Assembly (NCBI GenBank): GCA_021780815.1
Contig: JAJXYC010000020.1
Span: 69,046-133,045 of the forward strand
From: Bacteroidota bacterium
Lineage (GTDB): Bacteria > Bacteroidota > Ignavibacteria > Kapaibacteriales > UBA2268
Length of the DNA stretch: 64,000 nt
Direction of reading: 5' to 3'
Position 1 is the stretch's first letter, and each line of letters begins with the position of its first letter. Below are positions 8,007-33,004 of this stretch, piece by piece. The notes beneath the pieces were generated by a model that was given only the letters and a program-made list of their open reading frames with translations, did no database searches and was not told the DNA's origin. Both the position numbers and the translations under genes were made by a program.

Positions 8007-8473
8007 ATATTTCTTTGAATATATTTAACAAATTTTATATTCTTTTTAATAGAACAAAATTAAAATAGAATTATTCAGACCCTTCTTTATTTAATATTTA
8101 ACCAAATTGAAACTTATGAAAATTTTCTTTAAATAATATATCAATAATATAGATGTAAATGAAGATGAAATTTTCATAAAATTATCCTAACAAAGCAAAT
8201 TAATAGTAAATGACTCTATTAATAAGAATAATTCTGTTTTATTAAACGAACTTTACATATTGCTTTAAAAATTAAATAATAGAAATAATTAATTAATAAA
8301 TATTAATATAATAAAAACAATATAATAAATATAATAAATTAATTATTTTTAATTTTAATATTAAATATTTCTTATTTTTCAATTATATCATATTTATTAT
8401 TTGTAATTTTGTATTAAAATAAATCAACAAAATTAAAATTTATTTGTTTTTATTTCAATAAACTCAGGTAAAA
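8007..8473. other. Long AT-rich intergenic region before hydBAC
   Basis: 467 nt, nearly all A/T from ~8260 on. I see no gene, tRNA or strong hairpin. A perfect TAnnTTTG box lies at 8404-8411. Any further regulatory sites for the hydrogenase operon would be here, but none can be identified by eye. Confidence 0.6.
8404..8411 (+). promoter_or_regulatory. TAnnTTTG promoter box for hydBAC
   Basis: Perfect TAATTTTG, 62 nt before the hydB start. The only candidate promoter recognised for the first hydrogenase operon. Confidence 0.5.
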
Positions 8474-10654
8474 ATGACAAACGTACTTTTAGAATATGAA
8501 AATCTGAAAAAAGAACTTGACTTTGCTTCAACCGACGCAGATAGAACAGGGAAGATTATCATCCAAATAGGTTCGGCAACCTGTGAAAAAGCTGCAGGTT
8601 CCGATAAAGTTCGGGATGAATTCCAGAAATTAATCAAAGCATCGGGCAAATCCAATATTGTGATTAAGCAAACAGGTTGTACTGGTCGCTGTTCTCAAGA
8701 ACCTATTGTTACTGTGTTTTTACCAAATCAAATCCCTGTAAAATATAGCAAAGTAACAGTCGAAAAAGTTAATGAAATTTTTAACGAGCATATTATTAAT
8801 TCAAATCCACTCACAAAGTATATGCTTGATAAGCATACCAACTTACTTTGCAAGTGGGTGACAACAATTTTTTCAACAAAACATAGTTCTAATGAATTTT
8901 ATGAAAAATGGGGCAAAAAAATAAATTCAATGCTCGATGATTATGGTTTGTATTATGATGTCAGAATCTTGTTTGGTGGAGAAATTCAAATTCAACAAAG
9001 AAGCTCTTCAGAATACGATGGTATTTTAATGATATTCCCAGAAAATGTACTTTATGGCTTTTCTGATGAGGAAGACTTAAAACGTATTATTGAAGGACAA
9101 TTTATTAATAAACAATTGGTCCGTGACAATCATGTTTTTGCAAAAGATTTGGTTGAAAAATATATTAAGTTTTATGGTGATTTATCATTTTTCAACAAAC
9201 AAAACAGAATCACATTAAGAAACTGCGGAATAATTGACCCCGAAAGTTTAGTGGATTATATTCACGCACAAGGTTATGAGGCACTATCGCATATTTTATT
9301 TAAAGGTGACCCTGAATGGGTAATCAATGAAATCCTGAAGTCAGGTCTTCGAGGCAGAGGTGGTGGCGGCTTCCCCACTGGTGCAAAATGGAAAAACACA
9401 CGCACTCTTTCTAATGACCCGATTAAATATGTTATTTGTAATGCTGACGAAGGTGACCCGGGTGCTTTTATGGATAGAAGTGCATTAGAAGGTGACCCAT
9501 TCAGTATTATCGAAGGTATGACTATTGGGGCTTATACAATGGGTGCAAGCAAAGGCTTTATTTATGTGCGTGCAGAATATCCTTTGGCAATAAAGCGACT
9601 GGAAAATGCGATTAAAGAAGCACACAAATTTGGTTTACTCGGGAATAATATTTTAGGCTCGGACTTCTCTTTTGATATTGAAATAAGGTTAGGTGCGGGA
9701 GCCTTTGTTTGTGGGGAAGAAACTGCATTAATTAAATCAATAGAAGGTAAACGTGGTCAACCAGTATTCCGCCCACCGTATCCATCATTTAAAGGACTTT
9801 GGGGACATCCAACTTGTATTAATAATGTAGAAACTTGGGCAAATGTTCCTGCAATTATGCTCTATGGCGCTGATTGGTTCAATAAAATTGGAACAGAAGG
9901 TAGCAAGGGGACAAAAGTTTTCGCACTTGCCGGAAAAGTTAAAAATACTGGTTTAGTTGAAGTGCCTATGGGAACTACACTCCGTGAAATCATATATGAC
10001 ATAGGCGGCGGAATTCCCAATGGAAAAGTATTAAAAGCTATACAAACAGGCGGTCCTTCTGGTGGTTGTATTCCTGCTTCAAAAATCGATACCCCTGTCG
10101 ATTATGAATCACTTAAATCTGTCGGTTCTATGATGGGTTCCGGGGGAATGATTGTGCTTGATGACACTGATTGTATTGTTTCTACTTGCAAATTTTTTTT
10201 AGAATTTACTAAAGATGAATCTTGTGGCAAATGCTTACCGTGTCGAGAAGGCACTGTGAGAATGCTGGAAATCTTGGAAAGAATAACAAACGGTACCGCT
10301 GTTCTCGAAGATTTAGATAAATTAAAACGATTAGGTAATTTAATGAAGAAAACTTCATTATGTGGGTTAGGTCAATCAGCTCCGAATCCAGTATTGAGTT
10401 CATTAGAAAACTTTTATGATGAATTTATTACTCATATCGTTGAAAAAAGGTGTCCTACACAACGTTGCACTGATTTGATTAAATACGTAATTGATGCGGA
10501 CAAATGCACTGGTTGTACTGTTTGTGCCAGACGTTGTCCAGTACTTTGCATAAGTGGAAGCAAACGTATGCCACACGAAATTGACCAAGATAAGTGTATT
10601 AAATGTGGTGAATGCTATAATGCATGTAAGTTTGATGCAATTATTAAAATATAA
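8474..10654 (+). CDS. hydB: [FeFe] hydrogenase, NuoF-like NAD(H)/FMN subunit, extended form
   Basis: 726 aa. NAD(H)- and FMN-binding subunit of a multimeric hydrogenase in the cytoplasm. Order: thioredoxin-like [2Fe-2S] domain (~25-110; C37 and C69-x3-C73, so only three of the usual four ligands are obvious); an unusual ~100-residue stretch (~115-215); NuoF core from ~240 with the glycine-rich [15 protein letters not shown] (~290); [10 protein letters not shown]-type FMN region; 4Fe-4S site [11 protein letters not shown] (~582); and two C-terminal ferredoxin clusters [12 protein letters not shown] and [12 protein letters not shown]. It is longer than HydB of Thermotoga because of the N-terminal stretch. 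hydA follows 11 nt later and hydC overlaps hydA. NuoF of complex I is excluded by the adjacent H-cluster subunit. Confidence 0.93.
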
Positions 10655-10665
10655 AAAGGTACAAT

Positions 10666-12429
10666 ATGAATATGTTAAATGTAATTATAGATGATAAAGA
10701 AATTCAAGTGCCAGAAGGTACAACTATTATGCAAGCAGCTGACGGTATTGGTTCGCACGTCCCAAGATTATGCTATCATCCAATATTATCCACTGAAGGA
10801 GCATGCCGTATTTGCATTGTCGAAGTTGAAGGTATGAACAATTTTACTACTTCTTGCAATACGAAAATTCAAGAAGGAATGAAAATAAAAACTAATTCCC
10901 CATCCTTAATGCAAGCAAGGCGTGATTTGGTTGAATTACTTTTAGACAATCATCCACGCGCCTGTCTTACTTGTGATAGAGATGGTAATTGCGAATTACA
11001 AAATTTATCATATAAACTTGGTGTTCGAGAAAGATTATTTGCAGGCGAAAGAAAAAGAATCCCAATTGAAAGAGATAATATTGCAATTGTGCGTAATGCA
11101 GAAAAATGTATTCTTTGCCGTCGCTGTGTCCGTGTTTGTGCCGAAGTTCAAGGTATTTCAAATTTAAGTCAATTATATCGTGGATTTAATACCATTGTGG
11201 CGCCAGCATTCGAATCTAAAATGGACGATTCCATTTGTATAATGTGTGGACAATGTATCAACGTATGTCCAACTGCGGCATTAGAAGAAAAAAGCCACAC
11301 AGAACAAGTATTTGCCGCTTTGAATGACCCAACCAAACACGTTGTTGTTCAAACAGCACCTGCAATTCGTGTTGCTATTGCGGAAGGTTGGTATGATGAA
11401 GTTGGTATAAATGCTACGGGCAAAGCTGTCGAAGCTTTGCGTAGATTAGGGTTTGATGATGTTTTCGATACAAATTTTGGTGCTGATTTAACAATAGTAG
11501 AAGAATCGAATGAATTTTTATCAAGACTTGAAAAAGGGGAAAATTTACCTATTCTTACATCTTGTTCACCTGGCTGGATTAACTTTATGGAACACTTTTA
11601 TCCTGAATTTATTCCAAATGCTTCAACTTGCAAATCACCAATGCAAATGACATCAACTTTAATCAAAACATATTATGCACAACAAAAAGGACTTGACCCA
11701 AAAGATATTTACGTTGTCGCAATTATGCCTTGCATTGCAAAGAAATATGAAGCAAGTCGCCCAGAACATTTTTCCGAAGAAGGTTATCCTTATACTGACG
11801 CTGTGCTTACTACCCGTGAGTTAATTTGGATGATTAAAGCAATGGGAATAGATTTCAAAAATTTACCACAGAATTCAGAATTTGACAATCCATTAGGCGA
11901 AAGTACAGGTGCGGCAGTGATATTTGGTACCACCGGTGGTGTTATGGAAGCCACTTTAAGAACGGCGTATTTTAAATTAACAGGAAAAAAACCAAAAGAT
12001 TTAGAATATACTGAAGTTCGTGCTGTTGATGGATTAAAAGAAGCCTCGATTGAAATAGATGGCAAAACAATTAATGTCGCAGTTGCAAACGGGTTAAGCA
12101 ATGCAAAAATAATCCTTGATAAAGTAAAATCAGGCGAAAAACAATATCATATTATTGAATTAATGGCTTGTTCGGGGGGATGTGTTGCCGGAGGAGGACA
12201 ACCATTACCAAATACTTCTGAATATGTTTACCCATTAGATAGCGAAATTATCAAGAAAAGACAAGCCGCACTTTATCAAATTGATAAAGAGGAAGAAGTA
12301 AGAATATCAATTGAAAATCAATCAATCAAAAAGTTATACAAAAACTTATTAAAAAAACCAGGTAATGAAATTGCACATAAATTATTGCATACACATTATT
12401 CTGAAAAATTTCCAAGAGGTGTGAAATGA
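10666..12429 (+). CDS. hydA: [FeFe] hydrogenase catalytic subunit
   Basis: 587 aa, reduces protons or oxidises H2. N-terminal [2Fe-2S] ferredoxin (C36, C47, C50, C64), His/Cys 4Fe-4S motif (HPRACLTCDRDGNCEL), two 4Fe-4S clusters (CILCRRCVRVC; CIMCGQCINVCP), then the H-cluster domain: L1 TSCSPGW (~297), L2 MPCIAKKYE (~354) and L3 MACSGGCVAGGGQP (~500). The small C-terminal domain ends with the LLHTHYS motif. L1 has Cys-Ser where many [FeFe] enzymes have Cys-Cys. The subunit has the size and cluster set of trimeric HydABC enzymes, which can bifurcate electrons between ferredoxin and NADH; bifurcation here is inference. Maturases HydEFG are not in the window. Confidence 0.95.
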   Translation: MNMLNVIIDDKEIQVPEGTTIMQAADGIGSHVPRLCYHPILSTEGACRICIVEVEGMNNFTTSCNTKIQEGMKIKTNSPSLMQARRDLVELLLDNHPRACLTCDRDGNCELQNLSYKLGVRERLFAGERKRIPIERDNIAIVRNAEKCILCRRCVRVCAEVQGISNLSQLYRGFNTIVAPAFESKMDDSICIMCGQCINVCPTAALEEKSHTEQVFAALNDPTKHVVVQTAPAIRVAIAEGWYDEVGINATGKAVEALRRLGFDDVFDTNFGADLTIVEESNEFLSRLEKGENLPILTSCSPGWINFMEHFYPEFIPNASTCKSPMQMTSTLIKTYYAQQKGLDPKDIYVVAIMPCIAKKYEASRPEHFSEEGYPYTDAVLTTRELIWMIKAMGIDFKNLPQNSEFDNPLGESTGAAVIFGTTGGVMEATLRTAYFKLTGKKPKDLEYTEVRAVDGLKEASIEIDGKTINVAVANGLSNAKIILDKVKSGEKQYHIIELMACSGGCVAGGGQPLPNTSEYVYPLDSEIIKKRQAALYQIDKEEEVRISIENQSIKKLYKNLLKKPGNEIAHKLLHTHYSEKFPRGVK

Positions 12430-12935
12430 GAGATGTAAGTCATTTAAACATAACAATAGATAAAAGTATTGTTGATTTTATAGAGGAATGCTTGCAAAAA
12501 GAGCATCCTGAGAGTTATTTAATTGCAGTTTTGCACAAAGTCCAAGAATTATACGGATATTTATCAAACGAAAATATGTATCAAGTAGCTCATTTATTAG
12601 GTGTGCCAACTTCAACAGTTTACGGCGTGGCAACATTTTACCATTTCTTTAGATTAAAACCAAAAGGCAAATATTCAATTTCTGTCTGTCTCGGAACAGC
12701 TTGTTTTGTTAAAGGGGCAGATTTAGTTTTGCAATCATTTAAAAATGAATTAGGCATTGATATTGGAGAAACTACATCTGATGGTCTTTTTTCAATTGAT
12801 AATACAAGATGTTTAGGTGTTTGTGCTCTTGCTCCTGTTGTAACAATAAATGAACAAGTTTTTGGAAATGTTACTCCGAATCAAGTGCCAGAAATTTTGA
12901 ATAAAATTAAAACAAAAAGTGATACTATTGAATAA
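12426..12935 (+). CDS. hydC: [FeFe] hydrogenase, NuoE-like [2Fe-2S] subunit
   Basis: 169 aa. Helical N-terminal part (KVQELYGYLSNENMYQVAHLLGVPTSTVYGVATFYHFF) and a thioredoxin-like ferredoxin with four cluster ligands in CLGTAC and CLGVC. It passes electrons between the NuoF-like subunit and the rest of the complex. Its ATG overlaps the hydA stop (ATGA), so translation is coupled and stoichiometric assembly is likely. A strong terminator hairpin follows at 12966. Confidence 0.94.
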   Translation: MRDVSHLNITIDKSIVDFIEECLQKEHPESYLIAVLHKVQELYGYLSNENMYQVAHLLGVPTSTVYGVATFYHFFRLKPKGKYSISVCLGTACFVKGADLVLQSFKNELGIDIGETTSDGLFSIDNTRCLGVCALAPVVTINEQVFGNVTPNQVPEILNKIKTKSDTIE

Positions 12936-13106: not shown

Positions 13107-15914
13107 TTATTTAACCACCAGCATTTTTTTGGTAATATTAAATTTCTTAGTCTTTAAAGTATAGATATAGCTCCCCACATACAAATTGGCCATATTTATT
13201 TGTAATTGATGTAACCCTTTCTCTACAAACCCTTCGAATAACGTTCGAATGAATTTACCCGAATTGTCTGATAAAATCATTGTGACAAAATCATCTTGAT
13301 TTAATGAAAATTCGATTGTGGTAGATAAATTAGCAGGATTTGGGTAATTTCGTAAAATTGAAGTTTCCCTTTGAAGATTATCATCAACACTTAAAGGAAT
13401 TTCACTAAGAAAAACCCCGCTACCTTGTGTAGCAATTGCGGCAGTAATTTTATCGTTATCTACGTAAGTATCTATCATTTCCACAATTACATTCCCGATA
13501 GTTTCTTTGCCTTCTTGTAACCATTCAGTTTGCATTCCTTGTAAATGAGTAGTTGAAAATAAACCTACATCAGTTCCAACCAAAATTAGCCCTTCTTGTT
13601 GATATGGTACATATTTAATCCAGCGAACAGATGGTCCTGCTCCTGTTCCATCGGGAAATTCTTCTAGATTACCCCCGATTTCTTGCCAACTTTGTCCTTT
13701 ATCCTTGCTGTAAAAAATACTCTGAACATTGTAATTAGAAAATGTTAAATAAATTTCATCACTCCCATTATTAGTATTAACGTCAATTGAAGAAATCCAA
13801 CCACCTCTTGGGAAATTTGCTCCTGTAATATTATATCTTACAGCAGAATTTGGATTGTCAGCATCATAAATTACATACAAATTACCATTATTTGTACCCA
13901 CCAATAAGTTTTTAAATCCACTTGCATCATCATAGATTTTCATAACAGAAATAGTATCGTTACTTGGTAAAACAAACGCATCAGGTGGCGAAATAACCCA
14001 TTCACTATTAAATATATTTTCGCTTTGCTCAATATCCATTAGCTTGTGATGAAATAAAATTTTATTCAGTGCAGGCAAATAAATACTATTTTTATCGTTA
14101 GGATCAATAATGAAATTATTGTAAAAAGAAAATTCTTCGCTGTTCAAAGACCAAGGAGTAATATAGTAAAAATTTTGTGGTTCAAGCGACTCACTAAGCG
14201 TTGTCAGAACAGATGCACCATTATACCAAGTAGTAATAACATAACTTAAATCATTTGCAATTGCAACATTCATCCCGTCCCCACCTGTTAATTCATTCCA
14301 ATCTTTTGTTGTTTGATTAGAGGCATTCATATAAAATGAGCCATTATCTTGCAACCCCCCTACTAACAATTTCGTGTATGGAGATTGTGATATTGCAACT
14401 GAGTAAAATTGAGAAGTAATCAAATTTTGGTTTAAACTTACCCATTCTGGTGTTACAGCATTAACATCTTCAAGTTTATATACTCCGCCATCACTAACGG
14501 TATATAAAGTTTTAGTATTTTGAGGTGAAAAAGTTAAACTATGCACATCAGGATGTAAATACCAACTGGCTAAATCATAAGTAAAATAATTATCTTGCCA
14601 GTAATATCCACCGATCATATCAAAATGTAAATTATCAGCAAATCCATTTTTAGAGCGATACAAAGAAGTTCCAGCCAATAAAACAAAATTTTCATCATTT
14701 GGACCTACTATTAAATTTTGTGCATATCCTCCCAAAGTAGAATATGTCATAATATCTTGCGATGGAGGAAATAAATTAGCAGTCAAATCTTGCCACTTTT
14801 GGCTTGCATTTTCAGTATATTTATATAAAGAAGATTTGGAATCATGGAATGAATACATATCTATACCATTGGTCGGTTCTTCTACTGATACATACAGCAC
14901 ATTATTATTAGATGGTGCTATTGCCAACTTAATAACCTTTGCATCATTAGGCAAAAAAGAACCTGATATATTTTCCCAATTATTTCCTTGATTAGTAGAT
15001 TTAAAAATGCCTGTATATTTTGGAGTTATACCTGACAACGAAATAGAACTAATTGCCGCATATAAAACACCATCATTAGTTATTTCTAAATCCGAAGAAA
15101 AGGCTAAATTATTTACATCACCAAGCACTAAATTCCAAGAATTGCCGCCATCAGTTGATTTTATAATGCCACCAACACAAGCGGCATAAACAACGTCGGA
15201 ATTGTTTATATTCGGGTCAGGAATAATTTTCCAAATTCCTTGGAATATTCCTGATAAATTAGTTGTATTACTTGGCTTTGTAGAAGGTAGTAAAAACCAG
15301 GACACACCATTATCAGTTGATTTAAACATCCCATCCCCAATATAGGACATACGAGCTTTGGTAGATATTTTTCTATCAATGGTACTTAAAAGTTCACCCG
15401 AACCATAATACCAAGTATTATATTTGCCTTCCCTTTTATCTTGTGCAATACAATACACACTTTGAATTTCATTTTTTGGTGTTGTCTTAACCCAAGTTAT
15501 CCCATCATCAGTAGAACGCCAAACTCCACCTGTTGCGGCACCTACTAAAAGCGTCTTTTCATCATTTATATCAATTGCTATACAATTTGCTCGCCCTCCA
15601 ACATTGGTCGGTCCTATATTTTGCCAAAAAAAACTACCATTGTTATAATCACCTGTTTTTTGTAATTGCAATTGATTACTTGAATTTATGTTCTTAACAA
15701 AATTTAATACCCGCTCTTTAATATTTTTAGGGAGGTCGCCTGTTTTCGGGTCTTTCGTTCGTTGAAATTCATAATTGGCATAAAGAGCAAGAGATTCCGA
15801 TTTTGATAGCCTATATTTTTTTTGTGAATTAATTTTATTTAAACTAAAATATAAAAACACAGGAATTATTAATAATCCAAAAATAAATATAAACAAGTAT
15901 TTTGTTTTTTTCAT
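13107..15914 (-). CDS. Secreted Asp-box (BNR/sortilin-like) beta-propeller protein with T9SS sorting domain
   Basis: 935 aa. N-terminal signal/anchor helix (KYLFIFIFGLLIIPVFLYFS). At least five Asp-box motifs of the SxDxGxxW kind are visible (RSTDDGITW, KSTDNGVSW, KSTDGGNSW, KSTNQGNNW, YSKDKGQSW), giving a VPS10/sialidase-like propeller fold, a family of glycan- or protein-binding and hydrolytic proteins. The last ~80 residues are a type A sorting domain (NYPNPANLSTTIEFSL ... GSYIYTLKTKKFNITKKMLVVK). No catalytic residues can be assigned, so the role at the cell surface is unknown. The start chosen is the ATG at 15914, with AGGAGAG 5 nt upstream; a TTG at 15929 is less likely. Convergent with hydC. 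Confidence 0.88.
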   Translation of the reverse strand: MKKTKYLFIFIFGLLIIPVFLYFSLNKINSQKKYRLSKSESLALYANYEFQRTKDPKTGDLPKNIKERVLNFVKNINSSNQLQLQKTGDYNNGSFFWQNIGPTNVGGRANCIAIDINDEKTLLVGAATGGVWRSTDDGITWVKTTPKNEIQSVYCIAQDKREGKYNTWYYGSGELLSTIDRKISTKARMSYIGDGMFKSTDNGVSWFLLPSTKPSNTTNLSGIFQGIWKIIPDPNINNSDVVYAACVGGIIKSTDGGNSWNLVLGDVNNLAFSSDLEITNDGVLYAAISSISLSGITPKYTGIFKSTNQGNNWENISGSFLPNDAKVIKLAIAPSNNNVLYVSVEEPTNGIDMYSFHDSKSSLYKYTENASQKWQDLTANLFPPSQDIMTYSTLGGYAQNLIVGPNDENFVLLAGTSLYRSKNGFADNLHFDMIGGYYWQDNYFTYDLASWYLHPDVHSLTFSPQNTKTLYTVSDGGVYKLEDVNAVTPEWVSLNQNLITSQFYSVAISQSPYTKLLVGGLQDNGSFYMNASNQTTKDWNELTGGDGMNVAIANDLSYVITTWYNGASVLTTLSESLEPQNFYYITPWSLNSEEFSFYNNFIIDPNDKNSIYLPALNKILFHHKLMDIEQSENIFNSEWVISPPDAFVLPSNDTISVMKIYDDASGFKNLLVGTNNGNLYVIYDADNPNSAVRYNITGANFPRGGWISSIDVNTNNGSDEIYLTFSNYNVQSIFYSKDKGQSWQEIGGNLEEFPDGTGAGPSVRWIKYVPYQQEGLILVGTDVGLFSTTHLQGMQTEWLQEGKETIGNVIVEMIDTYVDNDKITAAIATQGSGVFLSEIPLSVDDNLQRETSILRNYPNPANLSTTIEFSLNQDDFVTMILSDNSGKFIRTLFEGFVEKGLHQLQINMANLYVGSYIYTLKTKKFNITKKMLVVK

Positions 15915-15945
15915 AAACTCTCCTATCAATTAACTTTAATAAGAA

Positions 15946-16007: not shown

Positions 16008-16451
16008 TTATTTTGTTAAATCTTTTATAACATCTTTAATGCTATTGCAACTTGCTTGCTTTGTATAAACAGGACACTCACGACAATCTTTGTCAGCACA
16101 AATATTATTGTAATGAATTACTGTCCAACAAGGATTATCGTAATTGTTATATGCTTTGCATTGTGTTCTTTCTTCTTCTGAACATCCTAAAATCTTCCAG
16201 CATGGTAAAAGTGAATACATCATTCTTATTGCAGAAATCGAAACTTTCTTTTCTTTAATAGCGTTTCTTATGCAACTTATTTTTTCAACGTCATTTTGAG
16301 AATAAAGCCTATGCCCAGATGTTTTTTTGTACGTTATAATTAAACCTTCTCGCTCATACATTCTTAACGTATGAACCGAAACATTTAATAAATTAGAAAC
16401 AACACTAATTGTATAGATTGGGGTATCTTTATTAATTTGGTCTTTTTTCAT
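16008..16451 (-). CDS. MerR-family regulator with Cys-rich two-CW-like sensor domain
   Basis: 147 aa. Residues ~10-75 are a MerR winged helix (ISVVSNLLNVSVHTLRMYEREGLI, then SGHRLYSQNDVEKI), closest in style to HspR-type members. Residues ~85-140 carry eight Cys in a pattern CW-x4-C-x7-C-x9-CW-x8-C-x4-C-x2-C-x7-C (PCWKILGC ... PCWTVIHY ... CADKDCRECPVY), which resembles the two-CW module found in some sensory proteins and likely binds metal or an Fe-S cluster. MerR proteins usually work as dimers at elongated promoters. It is divergent from aroC across 149 nt and may control itself or its neighbour. The signal is unknown. Confidence 0.82.
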   Translation of the reverse strand: MKKDQINKDTPIYTISVVSNLLNVSVHTLRMYEREGLIITYKKTSGHRLYSQNDVEKISCIRNAIKEKKVSISAIRMMYSLLPCWKILGCSEEERTQCKAYNNYDNPCWTVIHYNNICADKDCRECPVYTKQASCNSIKDVIKDLTK

Positions 16452-16489
16452 ATAATTATTAATATTTATATTGTTATATTTTCTATATT

Positions 16490-16497
16490 CAAAATTA
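16490..16497 (-). promoter_or_regulatory. TAnnTTTG promoter box for the MerR gene
   Basis: Perfect TAATTTTG on the minus strand, 38 nt before the regulator's ATG. Confidence 0.5.
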
Positions 16498-16569
16498 TAT
16501 ATTTTCTATAAATAAATAAAAAAAACATAATTCTTAACTCAATAAAAATAAAGAAATAAAAAAAGTTCT

Positions 16570-16577
16570 TAAATTTG
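16570..16577 (+). promoter_or_regulatory. TAnnTTTG promoter box for aroC
   Basis: Perfect TAAATTTG. With a start site ~7 nt downstream the aroC transcript would have a very short leader (8-17 nt). Confidence 0.5.
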
Positions 16578-16600
16578 TAAATACTTAACAAATGCAAGAA

Positions 16601-17602
16601 ATGAACAAATTTGGAAGATTATATAGTTTAGAAATATTTGGGGAATCCCATAGTTTTGCAACTGGCGGTATAATTGATGGCTGTCCTTCTGGATTAGATT
16701 TTGATAAGGATTTCATATCGCAAAGTTTATTAGATAGAAAAGGTAATTCTTTTGCGACAACTCCACGCAAAGAAGATGATAGATTAATTACTTTATCGGG
16801 AGTAAAAAATGGTAAAACAACAGGAACCCCTATTTCATTTTATATTTTAAATAAATCATATGAATCAAAAGATTACAATTTTGAAGAAACGCCACGACCC
16901 GGACATGCAGATTTTACTCAATTAATGAAATATGGTAAAAATGCAGATATTTCAGGAGGTGGTCATTCATCAGGCAGGCTTACATTACCTTTAGTTGTTG
17001 CTGGTTCTGTAAGTTTGTTATTGTTAAAAAAACTTTTTCCAAATATCAAAATTCAAGCAGAAATTAAAGAAATTGGTGGGCAAGTAGATTATAATGAATT
17101 GCTTGTTGAAACTGTAAAAAGGGGCGATTCTCTTGGAGGCATTGTTTTATGTAAGATATCTAACATTCCTGTTGGAATTGGCGAACCTTTTTTTGATAGC
17201 GTAGAATCAGTAATCAGTCATTTGATTTTTTCAATTCCAGGAGTAAAAGGGATTGAATTTGGAGCAGGTTTTGCTTCTGCCAAAATGTTTGGAAGCGAAA
17301 TGAACGATGAAATACTAAATCAAACAGGACAAACCAAAACAAATAATGCCGGCGGGATTGTTGGAGGAATTACCAACGGGAATGACATTATCTTTAACGT
17401 TGCCTTTCGACCACCAGCAAGCATTAAACTACCTCAAAAAACAATTAATTTAAATTCAAATCTTGAAGAAAATATAACAATTAAAGGCAAACACGACGTT
17501 TGTTATGTTTTGCGAACAAAAACAATAATTGAAAGTACAGTTGCAATTGCACTCGTTGATTTATTAATGCTTGTCGGTCAAATCCCAAGAAAACTTGAAT
17601 AA
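16601..17602 (+). CDS. aroC: Chorismate synthase
   Basis: 333 aa from the ATG at 16601, giving the family start MNKFGRLYSLEIFGESHS; the ATG at 16592 adds only three residues. It converts 5-enolpyruvylshikimate-3-phosphate to chorismate with reduced FMN, the last step of the shikimate pathway. Signatures: GESH, RPGHAD followed by GGGHSSGRLT, the phosphate/FMN region GIEFGAGFAS, and NAGGIVGGITNG near the C-terminus. Slightly shorter than the usual ~350-360 aa. No Shine-Dalgarno is visible, in line with the short leader. Divergent from the MerR gene and convergent with the double-OmpA gene, 7 nt apart. Confidence 0.93.
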   Translation: MNKFGRLYSLEIFGESHSFATGGIIDGCPSGLDFDKDFISQSLLDRKGNSFATTPRKEDDRLITLSGVKNGKTTGTPISFYILNKSYESKDYNFEETPRPGHADFTQLMKYGKNADISGGGHSSGRLTLPLVVAGSVSLLLLKKLFPNIKIQAEIKEIGGQVDYNELLVETVKRGDSLGGIVLCKISNIPVGIGEPFFDSVESVISHLIFSIPGVKGIEFGAGFASAKMFGSEMNDEILNQTGQTKTNNAGGIVGGITNGNDIIFNVAFRPPASIKLPQKTINLNSNLEENITIKGKHDVCYVLRTKTIIESTVAIALVDLLMLVGQIPRKLE

Positions 17603-19898: not shown

Positions 19899-22028
19899 AT
19901 GGCTAAAAATAAGCAAATAAATAGAACATTGGCTGAAAATTCCCAACCAAGGATAGTATCGCTTTTTACAAAAAACCCTGATATGATACTTGCAGGTGGT
20001 GTTCTAGTTATTATGGCTTTGTTATTAATTCCACTTCCACCATTTTTGTTAGATTTGTTATTGGCAACAAATATTACAATTTCAGTTTTAACTTTGATAC
20101 TTTCATTATACTTGATGTCTCCATTAGATTTTTCAAGTTTTCCTACAATTTTGTTAATTACAACACTTTTTAGATTAGGTTTAAATGTTGCCTCAACGAG
20201 GTTAATTTTAGGAAAAGGATATGCAGGTAATATTATAAACGCTTTTGGTTCATTTGTTATACAAGGAAATTATATAGTCGGATTTATAATCTTTTTAATA
20301 CTTATTGTTATTAATTTTATTGTAATTATTAAAGGTTCCACCAGAATAGCCGAAGTAACAGCACGGTTTACTTTAGATGCTTTACCAGGCAAACAAATGA
20401 GTATTGATGCAGATTTAAATGCTGGATATATTGATGAAACTACTGCACGAAAAAGAAGAGAACAATTAACCAAAGAAGCAGACTTCTTCGGTTCAATGGA
20501 TGGTGCATCAAAATTTATTCGTGGTGATGCTATTGCTGGACTGATAATTTCAACAATTAATATTATAGGTGGCTTTGCTATTGGTATTTTGCAAATGAAT
20601 TTAACTTTTACAGAATCTGCCGCAAGATATACAATTTTAACAGTAGGTGACGGTTTAGTTTCACAAATTCCTGCTTTGCTAATTTCTGTAGGTGCAGGTT
20701 TAGTGGTTACTCGTTCTGCTTCTTCCAATCAACTTGATATTGAACTAAAAAAGCAATACGCCTACAAACCAAAACCTTTATTTGTTGTTTCAGGTTTACT
20801 TTTATTTATTTCTCTTATACCTAACTTTCCATTTTTCCCGTTTTTTGTTTTAAGTTTAATTACAGGTTCTATGGGTTATTATAGAATACAGAAAAATAAA
20901 AAAGACGAAGCATCTAAAATACAAGAAGAACAAAACAAACATCTTACTGAAAGCAAACCACAAGAACAGCCAGTAGAAGAATCTCTTAGAATAGACCCAA
21001 TTGAAATTGACCTCGGTTATAATTTAATTTCATTAGTTGATGAAGCGCAAGGTGGAGATGTATTCAAAAGAATTACTAATATACGGAAGCAATTAGCAAC
21101 AGAATTAGGTATTATTTTGCCTCCTGTAAGAGTTAGAGATAATTTGCAGCTGGAACCAGAAGAATATGTAGTAAAAATCCGAGGAAATGAAATTGCAAAA
21201 AATAAATTATATCCCAACTTATTACTGGCAATGAATCCAGGTACTGCTGATGGAGAACTCGATGGAACGAAAGTAACAGAACCTGTCTTCGGATTACCAG
21301 CCACATGGATACCTTATAATGCTCGTGAAAGTGCAGAAATTAGTGGCTATACTGTTGTTGAATCAGCAACTGTGTTAAGTACCCATTTAACTGAATTATT
21401 GAAGCGTAACGCAGATAAACTCCTCTCTCGCCAAGAAGTTAAAAAATTAGTTGATAACCTTGAACCTACCCATAAAGTTTTACTTGATGAAATGGCAAGC
21501 GAAAATTTACCGCTTTCAACAGTTCAAAAAGTATTACAAAATCTTTTAATTGAAAGTATTCCAATTAGAGACCTACCACAAATTTTAGAAAGTTTGTTAG
21601 ATTATTATAAAATCACAAAAAATATAGATGTGCTTACTGAATACGTAAGGCACAATCTTTCTGAAACTATAAAGAAATTATATCAAGATGAAAATAATGT
21701 AGTTCACGTTATCGCTCTTGACGGTGAAATTGAAGATATGATGACGCGTCAATTACAATCAAGCAATCAGCTTGCCGTGAGTTCATCATTGGGATTAGCT
21801 CCACAAGTAATTCAAGATATTAATCATAGTATATCAGAAGCAATTGATGAAGTAACAATTTTAGGTTATATGCCGGTAGTTATTTGTTCAGCACAAGTAA
21901 GACCTTATTTATTCCGTATGATTCATTCACAATTCCCAATGGTATCTGTAATAAGTTACACAGAATTACCTGCCGATACAGATATTGAGGTACATACTTC
22001 AATAAAAATTGGAGAAAAAGTAAGTTAA
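19899..22028 (+). CDS. flhA: Flagellar type III export gate protein FlhA
   Basis: 709 aa. N-terminal half with about eight membrane helices and the FHIPEP-family signature region (SPLDFSSFPTILLITTLFRLGLNVASTR, ~70-97), then RFTLDALPGKQMSIDADLNAG, followed by a ~340-residue cytoplasmic domain. FlhA forms the nonameric export gate of the flagellar basal body. The length and the cytoplasmic domain (GLPATWI, TVVESATVLSTHL, DREVKKLV-like LSRQEVKKLVDNL) fit flagellar FlhA, not injectisome SctV. No other flagellar gene is adjacent. Intact. It converges with ftsI, leaving 1 nt between stops. Confidence 0.94.
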   Translation: MAKNKQINRTLAENSQPRIVSLFTKNPDMILAGGVLVIMALLLIPLPPFLLDLLLATNITISVLTLILSLYLMSPLDFSSFPTILLITTLFRLGLNVASTRLILGKGYAGNIINAFGSFVIQGNYIVGFIIFLILIVINFIVIIKGSTRIAEVTARFTLDALPGKQMSIDADLNAGYIDETTARKRREQLTKEADFFGSMDGASKFIRGDAIAGLIISTINIIGGFAIGILQMNLTFTESAARYTILTVGDGLVSQIPALLISVGAGLVVTRSASSNQLDIELKKQYAYKPKPLFVVSGLLLFISLIPNFPFFPFFVLSLITGSMGYYRIQKNKKDEASKIQEEQNKHLTESKPQEQPVEESLRIDPIEIDLGYNLISLVDEAQGGDVFKRITNIRKQLATELGIILPPVRVRDNLQLEPEEYVVKIRGNEIAKNKLYPNLLLAMNPGTADGELDGTKVTEPVFGLPATWIPYNARESAEISGYTVVESATVLSTHLTELLKRNADKLLSRQEVKKLVDNLEPTHKVLLDEMASENLPLSTVQKVLQNLLIESIPIRDLPQILESLLDYYKITKNIDVLTEYVRHNLSETIKKLYQDENNVVHVIALDGEIEDMMTRQLQSSNQLAVSSSLGLAPQVIQDINHSISEAIDEVTILGYMPVVICSAQVRPYLFRMIHSQFPMVSVISYTELPADTDIEVHTSIKIGEKVS

Positions 22029-31381: not shown

Positions 31382-33004
31382 ATGAAAAATTTTCAAGTAT
31401 CCGGTAATATTGTAGATTTGTTAAACGAACAAATTTTCTCAGGAACAATTTATATTGAAAATGGAAAAATTGTTAAAATTAAGAAAGACAGAAAGACTTA
31501 TAAAAATTATATACTACCAGGCTTTATAGATGCACATGTCCACATTGAAAGTTCAATGTTACCTCCAAGCGAATTTGCTCGTTTAGCTTCAATTCATGGG
31601 ACTGTCGCAGCAGTATCAGACCCACACGAAATTGCAAATGTGCTTGGAGTAGATGGCGTTATCTTTATGTTAGAAAATGCAAGCAAAATTCCTTTTAAAT
31701 TTTATTTTGGTGTTCCATCTTGTGTACCTGCAACTAATTTTGAAACTTCTGGTGGTAAAATTGGAATTAATGAGATTAAATTTTTGTTTGAAAATTACAA
31801 CTTAAAATATTTAAGCGAAATGATGAACTATCCTGGTGTTATCAATTCTTTTCCTGATGTATTAGAAAAAATAGCACTTGCAAAAAAATTCAATAGACCT
31901 ATTGATGGTCATGCACCAGGATTAAAAGGTGATGAGGTCAAGAAATATATCGAAGCAGGCATTTCAACCGACCACGAGTGCTATTCTTATGAAGAAGCTT
32001 TACATAAAGCAAGATTAGGAATGAAAATTCTTATTCGTGAAGGTAGTGCCGCTAAAAACTTTGAAGCCATTGCTCCTTTGATTGCAGAAATGCCTGAAAT
32101 GTGTATGTTCTGCACAGATGATGCACATCCTGACCATTTGGTTGAAAAACATATTAAAGATGTTGTTTTACGAGCTTTCGATTTAGGATATGATGTTATT
32201 AATGTTTTAAAAATCGCTTCATTAAACCCAATTCAACATTATAAATTAGATGTAGGTCTCTTACAAATAGGTGACTTCGCTGATTTTATTGTTATTGATA
32301 ATTTTCAATATTTTAATATATTGAAAACTTATGTCAATGGTAATTTAATTGCTGAGGACGGTAAATCTACCCTGCCTTTTGTAGAATCCAACGCAATTAA
32401 TAACTTTAATGCAGTTTCTAAAATGCCAAATGATTTTAAATATTTATCAAAAGAAAAAGAAATTAAAGTCATAAAATCTTACGATGGCGAACTAATAACA
32501 GATGTAATTTTACATAAGCCCGAAATAAAAGATAATGATATTCAAACTAATTTAAACAAGGATATTTTGAAAATTTCAGTGGTAAATCGTTATACAAATT
32601 CCGCACCATCTATAGCTTTGATAAATGGAATTGGACTAAGAAAAGGCGCTATTGCAACAAGTGTTGCCCACGATTCGCATAATATCATTGCTGTTGGCGT
32701 AGATAATGATTCGCTTGCCAAAGTTGTAAACGCTATTATTGAATCAAAAGGCGGAATGGCAGTTTATGATGGAAAAGATATTTTTAAACTTGAATTGCCC
32801 ATCGCTGGGCTTATGTCTAATCTTCCTGCTTATGAAGTTGCAAATCAATACAAAATCCTTGACACAAAAGCCAAAGAATTAGGTTCAACACTTTCTGCAC
32901 CTTTTATGACTTTATCTTTTATGGCTCTTTTGGTCATCCCTAAAATTAAATTAAGCGATAAAGGACTTTTTAATAGTGAAACTTTTCAATTTATTAATCA
33001 ATAA
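31382..33004 (+). CDS. ade: Adenine deaminase
   Basis: 540 aa amidohydrolase that turns adenine into hypoxanthine and ammonia in purine salvage. The metal site GFIDAHVHIESSMLPPSEFA (~48-67), SDPHEIANVLG, the DGHAPG histidine, and the C-terminal region SVAHDSHNIIAVGVD match the Ade family, which includes a characteristic ~180-residue C-terminal domain. Length matches. No Shine-Dalgarno is clear; an A-rich leader precedes the ATG. The thioredoxin-like gene follows by 9 nt. Confidence 0.93.
   Translation: MKNFQVSGNIVDLLNEQIFSGTIYIENGKIVKIKKDRKTYKNYILPGFIDAHVHIESSMLPPSEFARLASIHGTVAAVSDPHEIANVLGVDGVIFMLENASKIPFKFYFGVPSCVPATNFETSGGKIGINEIKFLFENYNLKYLSEMMNYPGVINSFPDVLEKIALAKKFNRPIDGHAPGLKGDEVKKYIEAGISTDHECYSYEEALHKARLGMKILIREGSAAKNFEAIAPLIAEMPEMCMFCTDDAHPDHLVEKHIKDVVLRAFDLGYDVINVLKIASLNPIQHYKLDVGLLQIGDFADFIVIDNFQYFNILKTYVNGNLIAEDGKSTLPFVESNAINNFNAVSKMPNDFKYLSKEKEIKVIKSYDGELITDVILHKPEIKDNDIQTNLNKDILKISVVNRYTNSAPSIALINGIGLRKGAIATSVAHDSHNIIAVGVDNDSLAKVVNAIIESKGGMAVYDGKDIFKLELPIAGLMSNLPAYEVANQYKILDTKAKELGSTLSAPFMTLSFMALLVIPKIKLSDKGLFNSETFQFINQ

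Follow-up and report, generated by a model that had tools for sequence, protein, structure and literature searches.

The window, i.e., the whole stretch of 64,000 nucleotides that was analysed, carries on its minus strand an intact open reading frame of 147 aa with an ATG at 16451 and a stop codon ending at 16008 (Table 1). The sequence-only reading had placed this ORF exactly, and the plus strand of the same interval contains many in-frame stops. The divergent neighbour is an aroC-like gene (16592-17602), and a gene for a secreted-type protein of 940 aa (13107-15929) follows the regulator on its own strand after about 80 bp. The names of both flanking genes are our presumptive assignments; for the 940-aa protein, NCBIfam gave only a glycosylhydrolase match below its cut-off. 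Further along the window (8474-12935), a three-gene NADH-dependent [FeFe] hydrogenase of group A6 was identified (NF040763, 832.6 bits, cut-off 765).

Table 1. Position of the regulator gene and of its parts in the window.
Feature	Position	Strand	Evidence
MerR-two-CW regulator	16008..16451	-	intact ORF, 147 aa; aligned with 82 distinct full-length homologues (window copy included)
MerR winged-helix head, residues 13-78	16218..16415	-	PF13411, E 2.5e-15; nearest solved structures are GlnR/TnrA heads (Z ~10)
Codon of C60, conserved Cys within the MerR head	16272..16274	-	Cys in 75/82
Compact two-CW Cys module, residues 83-140 (C84, C90, C98, C108, C118, C123, C126, C135)	16032..16205	-	alignment, NF045718, hhalign
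Intergenic region between the regulator and divergent aroC	16452..16591	.	no recognisable family operator or TGGCA element

Analysis of the protein sequence assigned the N-terminal part to the MerR superfamily (MerR_1, 56.8 bits against a cut-off of 21.6). The C-terminal part contains two CW motifs (residues 84-85 and 108-109) followed by C118-x4-C123-x2-C126, and the architecture proposed earlier, a MerR head joined to a module with paired CW motifs and a CxxxxCxxC cluster, was thereby confirmed. Likewise, the eight closely spaced cysteines were found as described; they fall within 52 residues, for which P is about 3.5e-8 per stretch at the window Cys frequency of 0.95% (taken from the 43 window ORFs of at least 150 aa), so that the clustering is not due to chance. 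Only one of these 43 ORFs, a hydrogenase subunit (8474-10651, nine Cys), has a denser stretch. A ninth cysteine, C60, which the sequence-only reading did not count, is located inside the MerR head. The AlphaFold model of the whole protein reached a pLDDT of 90.9 and a pTM of 0.82 (by itself the module gave a poor model, pLDDT 71), and fold searches returned MerR heads, with GlnR and TnrA first. After residue 80 the model, which is that of a monomer and not of a dimer, has only short helices, the longest spanning residues 137-146. The window thus holds an intact copy of a small, cysteine-rich, predicted DNA-binding protein with a MerR head.

Homologues were collected in two ways. In a scan of genome contigs 80 of 92 loci were kept, mostly from Ignavibacteria, Melioribacter, Kryptonia, Kapabacteria, KSB1 and Calditrichota. 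The same scan yielded 14 loci of HspR-type MerR proteins lacking the module (L100-L113), which served as controls. In addition, the C-terminal module was used as a query against 296 genomes of the phylum and gave matches in 31, nearly all from the class or family of the window organism; this search listed 34 places, of which 31 were fetched with long flanks. Since three of the six contig-scan patterns span cysteines and the phylum query was the module itself, proteins in which the entire module has been lost would have escaped both searches. The alignment of 82 distinct full-length proteins left out the fragments L029, L094 and L098, the proteins with internal stops L080 and L095, L097, the 14 HspR-type proteins and exact duplicates. 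L080 and L095 belong to the family but are interrupted by an in-frame stop, which may reflect decay of the copy or an error of assembly.

Six module cysteines (C84, C90, C98, C108, C123 and C126) as well as W109 and Y129 are invariant in the 82 proteins, and Cys is kept at C118 in 76, at C135 in 77 and at C60 in 75 of them (91-94%). The earlier proposal of a metal or Fe-S/redox sensor had been staked on conservation of the cysteines in orthologues; this conservation was found, and it speaks for a role in metal binding, an Fe-S site or thiol redox chemistry. C60, C118 and C135 were all lost in one clade (L086, L090, L091 and L092). L024 lacks C60 and C135, L032 lacks C60 and C118, and single losses were seen in L077 (C118) and L085 (C60) as well as, in the larger set, in L199 (C60) and in the in-frame stop copy L080 (C135). 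Because they tend to disappear together, the alignment suggests that C60, C118 and C135 may form a functional trio apart from the six invariant cysteines, with the number of events being small. Loss of C60 accompanies loss of sulfur-gene linkage (see below) with a Fisher p of 2.1e-5 (truncated L154 also left out), which reflects just 3-4 independent events; the association was not significant when independent pairs on the tree were compared.

A profile search of the C-terminal half, as suggested by the sequence-only reading, gave a divided answer. Pfam returned six families, each matching one or two of 38 members and none convincing. The NCBIfam two-CW domain NF045718, in turn, weakly matched 26 of the 38 members (best E 9.4e-4), with the window module at 10.6 bits, below the curated cut-off of 35. 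Comparison of the module with four canonical two-CW domains by hhalign gave a probability of 97.6 and an E of 3.6e-12, scores which Cys-rich profiles can inflate. The seven-Cys order of NF045718 (C-W, C, C, C-W, C, C, C) was found in the module together with the PAY-like and CxxC-VY motifs, whereas the loop from the second CW to the CxxC is shorter and C135 is extra. Judged by these profile comparisons, the module is related to the two-CW domain but compact and divergent. In Nitrospirota genomes the module profile detected canonical two-CW domains, namely one forming the end of a chemoreceptor and others within two histidine kinases, as well as a small free-standing two-CW protein adjoining cheW (names that we presume from the sequences); MerR-two-CW proteins with seven module cysteines are encoded there as well. 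Four canonical domains come from one Nitrospirota genome (L126:2859-3128, L126:3177-5681, L126:8815-11511 and L128:1361-4705). No paper using the phrase two-CW domain was found in the open-access literature. A deltaproteobacterial MerR protein (L097:2241-2648) carries PCWKILGC followed by a different, shorter Cys tail and has an NrfD-like gene upstream.

Clustering of the genes around the homologues revealed recurring operons, the members of which were identified by profile. The first type encodes a thiosulfate-reductase-like molybdopterin enzyme (PhsA/PsrA-like), a ferredoxin, NrfD, Sulf_transp and rhodanese proteins. The second comprises a type III sulfide:quinone reductase (SQR), DUF1641, DsrC/TusE and a DsrE2-like protein, and the third an octaheme tetrathionate reductase, cytochrome b, Sulf_transp and rhodanese; a small further group consists of DsrE2-TusA. 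The profile scores lie above the cut-offs for SQR (NF049943, 665.3 bits, cut-off 525), the octaheme enzyme (TIGR04315, 586.5 bits, cut-off 375) and DsrC (TIGR03342, 102 bits, cut-off 53.5), and below it for the PhsA-like enzyme (NF012032, 519.7 bits, cut-off 694). Among 110 distinct proteins the next gene on the same strand is a sulfur gene in 82 (PhsA-like 42, SQR 22, octaheme 16, DsrE2 2). Of the remainder, two have the PhsA-like gene in second position, three lie at contig ends and 23 have no downstream link. Of these 23, L184, L186, L188 and L189, which belong to the nearest relatives of the window protein, stand directly behind a sulfur operon (the contig of L188 carries just the end of a DsrE2-like gene), in L054 the octaheme gene is third in the operon, and L097 has its NrfD-like gene upstream. 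With upstream genes and the third-gene octaheme counted, a sulfur operon adjoins 90 of the 105 distinct homologues that could be judged, i.e., without the 3 on short contigs and 2 Nitrospirota loci whose flanks measure about 1.5 kb, and the regulator is mostly the first gene. In the phylum sample 27 of 31 fetched regions were linked downstream. None of the 14 HspR-type control loci contained any of 17 reference genes. Linkage to sulfur genes, as in sulfane-sulfur sensing regulators, is thus a genomic association of the family that the window copy does not share.

On a tree with many weak forks the operon type switches 16 times over 88 typed rows, and this scatter indicates that the regulator tracks the chemistry and not one inherited operon. 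Conversely, type III SQR was found in 74 of the 296 genomes and the regulator stood beside SQR in just 5 of 30 loci fetched, so that the majority of SQR genes in the phylum rely on something other than this regulator. Three other arrangements were observed. At L145:5859-11054 a MerR-two-CW gene precedes an HdrA-like flavoprotein and an MvhD/FlpD gene. At L153:809-3101 one lies about 160 bp ahead of genes that we take to encode an ACR3-like arsenite exporter and an ArsC-like protein. At L096:9326-11786 a 363-aa exported-looking protein without Pfam family is followed by a FadL-type outer-membrane protein, a pair which recurs behind or in place of the SQR operon. Because its members nearly always adjoin genes oxidising or reducing sulfur compounds, the family is probably a sulfur-responsive gene switch.

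The upstream regions of the family genes contain a palindrome, AGTTGATATTTATAAATATCAACT, with TGGCA ahead of it at fixed spacing. The exact dyad GTTGA-N12-TCAAC occurs in 30 of 84 upstream regions, whereas in 20 shuffled sets no dyad word occurred in more than 7. The refined palindrome scored at least 14 bits in 51 of the 84 regions, on which its matrix had also been trained, mostly 25-60 bp ahead of the start codon; in 1680 shuffled sequences the 99th percentile was 3.8 and the maximum 15.6. In 1.26 Mb of locus DNA 68 sites of at least 14 bits were found, 59 of them within 200 bp upstream of a family gene. Of the nine others, eight lie ahead of a different MerR-two-CW gene; three of these eight are known sites detected a second time in reverse orientation, and three more (L042, L058 and L070) stand in front of gene starts outside the training set. 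The only strong site not preceding a MerR-two-CW gene (L043:1121-1146) is followed by a different gene, presumably for a carboxymuconolactone-decarboxylase family protein. The proposal to search for binding sites starting from 16452-16600 was thus sensible for the family, which has a putative palindromic operator at the promoter of the genes concerned, as is characteristic of the MerR superfamily; the region upstream of the window copy has none.

TGGC stands exactly 8 bases ahead of the palindrome in 50 of 57 sites (background 4 in 2850), and the combined element, TGGCAAGAAAGTTGAT, has the spacing of a sigma54 -24/-12 promoter. Such promoters carry GG at -24, within TGGCA, at a canonical distance from the -12 element, and this feature is present in the family element. 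A -24/-12 score of at least 15 was reached by 77 of 109 regions and by 3.9% of shuffles, with the -12 part overlapping the operator. Sigma54 promoters prefer C after TTG at -12; among 57 main-palindrome sites, A occupies this position of the putative element in 52 and C in 2. TTGC or CTGC is present at -12 in L124, L125, L084, L140, L068 and others. In the KSB1-type loci L124 and L125 a nearly perfect -24/-12 pair is closely followed downstream by a palindrome of another sequence, an arrangement which suggests that palindrome and -24/-12 pair are separate elements and that the protein would be placed where a repressor would be. The clade without C60, C118 and C135 has kept a -24/-12-like pair (TGGCA-like) but has a degraded palindrome; a sulfur operon was not found in the three members, of four, that had enough flank. 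RpoN is encoded in all 33 genomes searched, which is permissive only and does not discriminate. The TGGCA-palindrome arrangement resembles a sigma54 -24/-12 promoter, from which we infer that sigma54 may be used.

The window copy is an outlier of the family, having neither a sulfur neighbour nor the usual operator. Upstream of the gene the best family-operator score was -3.1 bits, no TGGC element was found at the family spacing, and promoter-like sites in 16452-16591 did not exceed those of shuffled sequences. Within the window the best operator scores were 8.0 bits at 32286 and 6.3 bits at 20292, and the whole genome contained no family operator within 3 mismatches. In this genome (2.63 Mb, 99% complete) SQR, DrsE_2 and PhsA-like genes were not detected. 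It does encode an octaheme-Sulf_transp operon on another contig (contig 16; L163:3758-8277), headed by a gene with two Cys which we take to be MarR-like and for which no NCBIfam match was found. In the relatives L185, L196, L199, L200 and L201 a MerR-two-CW gene heads the same octaheme operon. A weak operator-like site located 37 bp ahead of the MarR-octaheme operon has the highest score in the 12-kb locus, 5.8 bits, and may be due to chance, because 2 of the 63,975 positions in the 64-kb window reach this score. This octaheme tetrathionate reductase operon is the first candidate target of the window protein.

It is a serious possibility, falling a little short of even, that the window copy is a relic, i.e., an intact but displaced gene that in this lineage has lost its operon and operator and now controls only itself, the downstream secreted-protein gene, or nothing. 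This reading concerns the window copy and is compatible with what is proposed below for the family. Besides the missing linkage and operator, it is favoured by the absence of the gene from all four other genomes of the genus (it is present in 17 of 54 of the family) and by the octaheme operon now standing behind a MarR-like gene. The intact ORF, in which all nine cysteines and all invariant residues are kept, argues against it, as would the 5.8-bit site if it is not a chance match.

Comparison with characterized regulators set the family apart. The equivalog models of MerR, ZntR, CueR and SoxR were rejected (34.0, 30.9, 26.3 and 22.5 bits against cut-offs of 150.85, 167.95, 147.4 and 116.9, respectively), as was HspR, which is the best NCBIfam match (NF047375, 55.3 bits, cut-off 105). 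The winged-helix MerR_1 domain is shared with GlnR, TnrA and HspR, whereas the C-terminal part here is the eight-Cys two-CW module. Repressors of this group have a palindromic operator overlapping the promoter, like the family palindrome. With SoxR and the metal-sensing MerR proteins the family has in common a MerR head combined with Cys chemistry as the presumed input, but in the monomer model only short helices follow the head, and the CxxCxC motif of SoxR is absent. Classical MerR operators lie within the 19-20 bp spacer of a sigma70 promoter, in contrast to the predicted family operator, which overlaps -12/+1 of a sigma54-like promoter. CstR, SqrR, FisR and some MarR proteins are likewise Cys-bearing regulators encoded beside sqr and other sulfur genes, but belong to protein families other than MerR. 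These sulfane-sulfur sensors are listed in PMC11211675, and no case of a MerR-family sulfane-sulfur sensor was found in the open-access literature.

The MerR genes reported ahead of psrABC in Melioribacter roseus and Ca. Thermonerobacter probably belong to the same family. The accessible parts of two papers mention such a gene, MROS_1773 before psr in M. roseus (PMC5492636) and a MerR gene before psrABC (PMC6338057), and contain no Cys module, operator, SQR or octaheme context; apart from these mentions, no description of this regulator class was found in the open-access literature. L099 lies on contig MS_under01959, the number of which is shared with gene IDs in PMC6338057. L130 was equated with MROS_1773 by map position only (62.7% along a 3.300-Mb contig, compared to gene 1773 of the 2838 given in PMC3534657).

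The best explanation of these observations is that the family acts as an autoregulatory repressor of sulfur operons on a sigma54-like promoter and is released when its cysteines react with reactive sulfur; that this is right and that it is wrong seem to us about equally probable. The usual MerR dimerisation and effector part would be replaced by the compact two-CW cysteine module, and a dimer would bind the 24-26 bp palindrome overlapping -12/+1 of the promoter before its own gene, thereby repressing its own operon. Cysteines would then be modified by reactive sulfur, such as persulfide, polysulfide or the sulfane sulfur that arises when thiosulfate or tetrathionate is turned over. The best switch candidates are C60 of the head and C118/C135 of the module, with the six invariant cysteines presumably holding a structural metal or Fe-S site. 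The DNA would be released and an enhancer-binding protein could fire the promoter. Repression with release by sulfane sulfur is the course that we consider likeliest, and CstR and SqrR of other families are released in this way (PMC11211675). In M. roseus, psr/phsA showed hardly any expression in aerobic and microaerobic cells or in strictly anaerobic, fermenting ones, and its expression increased on arsenate (adjusted p 0.03), an inducer that is not a sulfur compound (PMC5492636). Such a pattern is what an inducible promoter would give. According to the same study, 1 mM sulfide was present under the strictly anaerobic condition (PMC5492636), so that sulfide alone was not enough there. Counting against the proposed repressor are the outlying window copy, with no sulfur neighbour and no operator, the induction of psrA by growth on arsenate, the A in place of C at the putative -12 element, the few independent events behind the C60 association, the majority of SQR loci without the regulator and the position of L153 ahead of arsenic genes.

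Alternatively, the eight cysteines might bind an Fe-S cluster or another redox metal site that senses oxygen or redox state, as in SoxR, FNR or IscR, and the sulfur respiration operons would then be switched by anaerobiosis and not by sulfur species. Six invariant and two near-invariant cysteines, the anaerobic respiratory enzymes encoded by many linked operons, and the occurrence of related canonical two-CW domains in chemoreceptors and histidine kinases, two kinds of protein that often sense redox state, would agree with such a sensor. We nevertheless regard it as unlikely, if well worth considering: what SQR, octaheme and PhsA-like operons have in common is sulfur chemistry and not their relation to oxygen, and the Cys spacing fits no recognised Fe-S motif. 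Moreover, psrA was nearly silent in strictly anaerobic M. roseus fermentation (PMC5492636), which indicates that anaerobiosis alone is not the inducer.

The arsenate effect keeps alive a further reading, in which the signal is arsenite or another thiophilic metal(loid), as for classical MerR/ArsR proteins, and the PhsA-like enzyme is an arsenate reductase. The induction of M. roseus psr/phsA on arsenate together with the MerR gene MROS_1773 (PMC5492636) would fit it. So would the genes presumed to be ACR3- and ArsC-like behind L153. Arsenic genes came up, on unsystematic inspection, beside this one homologue only, and the neighbours of the SQR-DsrC-DsrE2, octaheme, TusA and Sulf_transp/rhodanese kinds are not known to act on arsenic; we consider arsenic sensing improbable. 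Finally, the link to the hydrogenases that the sequence-only reading had found attractive was dropped, and control of the window's hydrogenase genes by the regulator is most improbable, since the group A6 genes, although only 3 kb away, are on the opposite strand, neither adjacent nor co-directional, and separated by the unrelated 940-aa gene, nothing resembling the operator was found in their vicinity (position 8405, among the ten best scores of the window, reaches only 1.2 bits), and hydrogenase operons did not recur in the homologue neighbourhoods (one HdrA/MvhD-like set at L145), which point to sulfur oxidoreductases.

Returning to the repressor released by reactive sulfur, the observations could be joined into a wider reading, which we offer tentatively and think rather unlikely to hold in full. 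The family would be the first MerR-family class of reactive-sulfur sensors, in which the module senses sulfur and the protein silences the sigma54 promoters of three unrelated operons via -12/+1, and the module in chemoreceptors and histidine kinases of other phyla would be a general sulfur/redox input domain. We know of no description of how sulfide oxidation or the reduction of thiosulfate, polysulfide or tetrathionate is regulated in Ignavibacteria, Kryptonia, Calditrichota and KSB1. A regulator family that tracks three unrelated sulfur operons provides a marker for annotating such operons in these organisms, and its palindrome is a ready-made candidate operator for regulon mapping. The family also gives a concrete handle on the role of the two-CW domain and would allow an unusual arrangement to be examined, in which a repressor of MerR type acts on a sigma54-like promoter.
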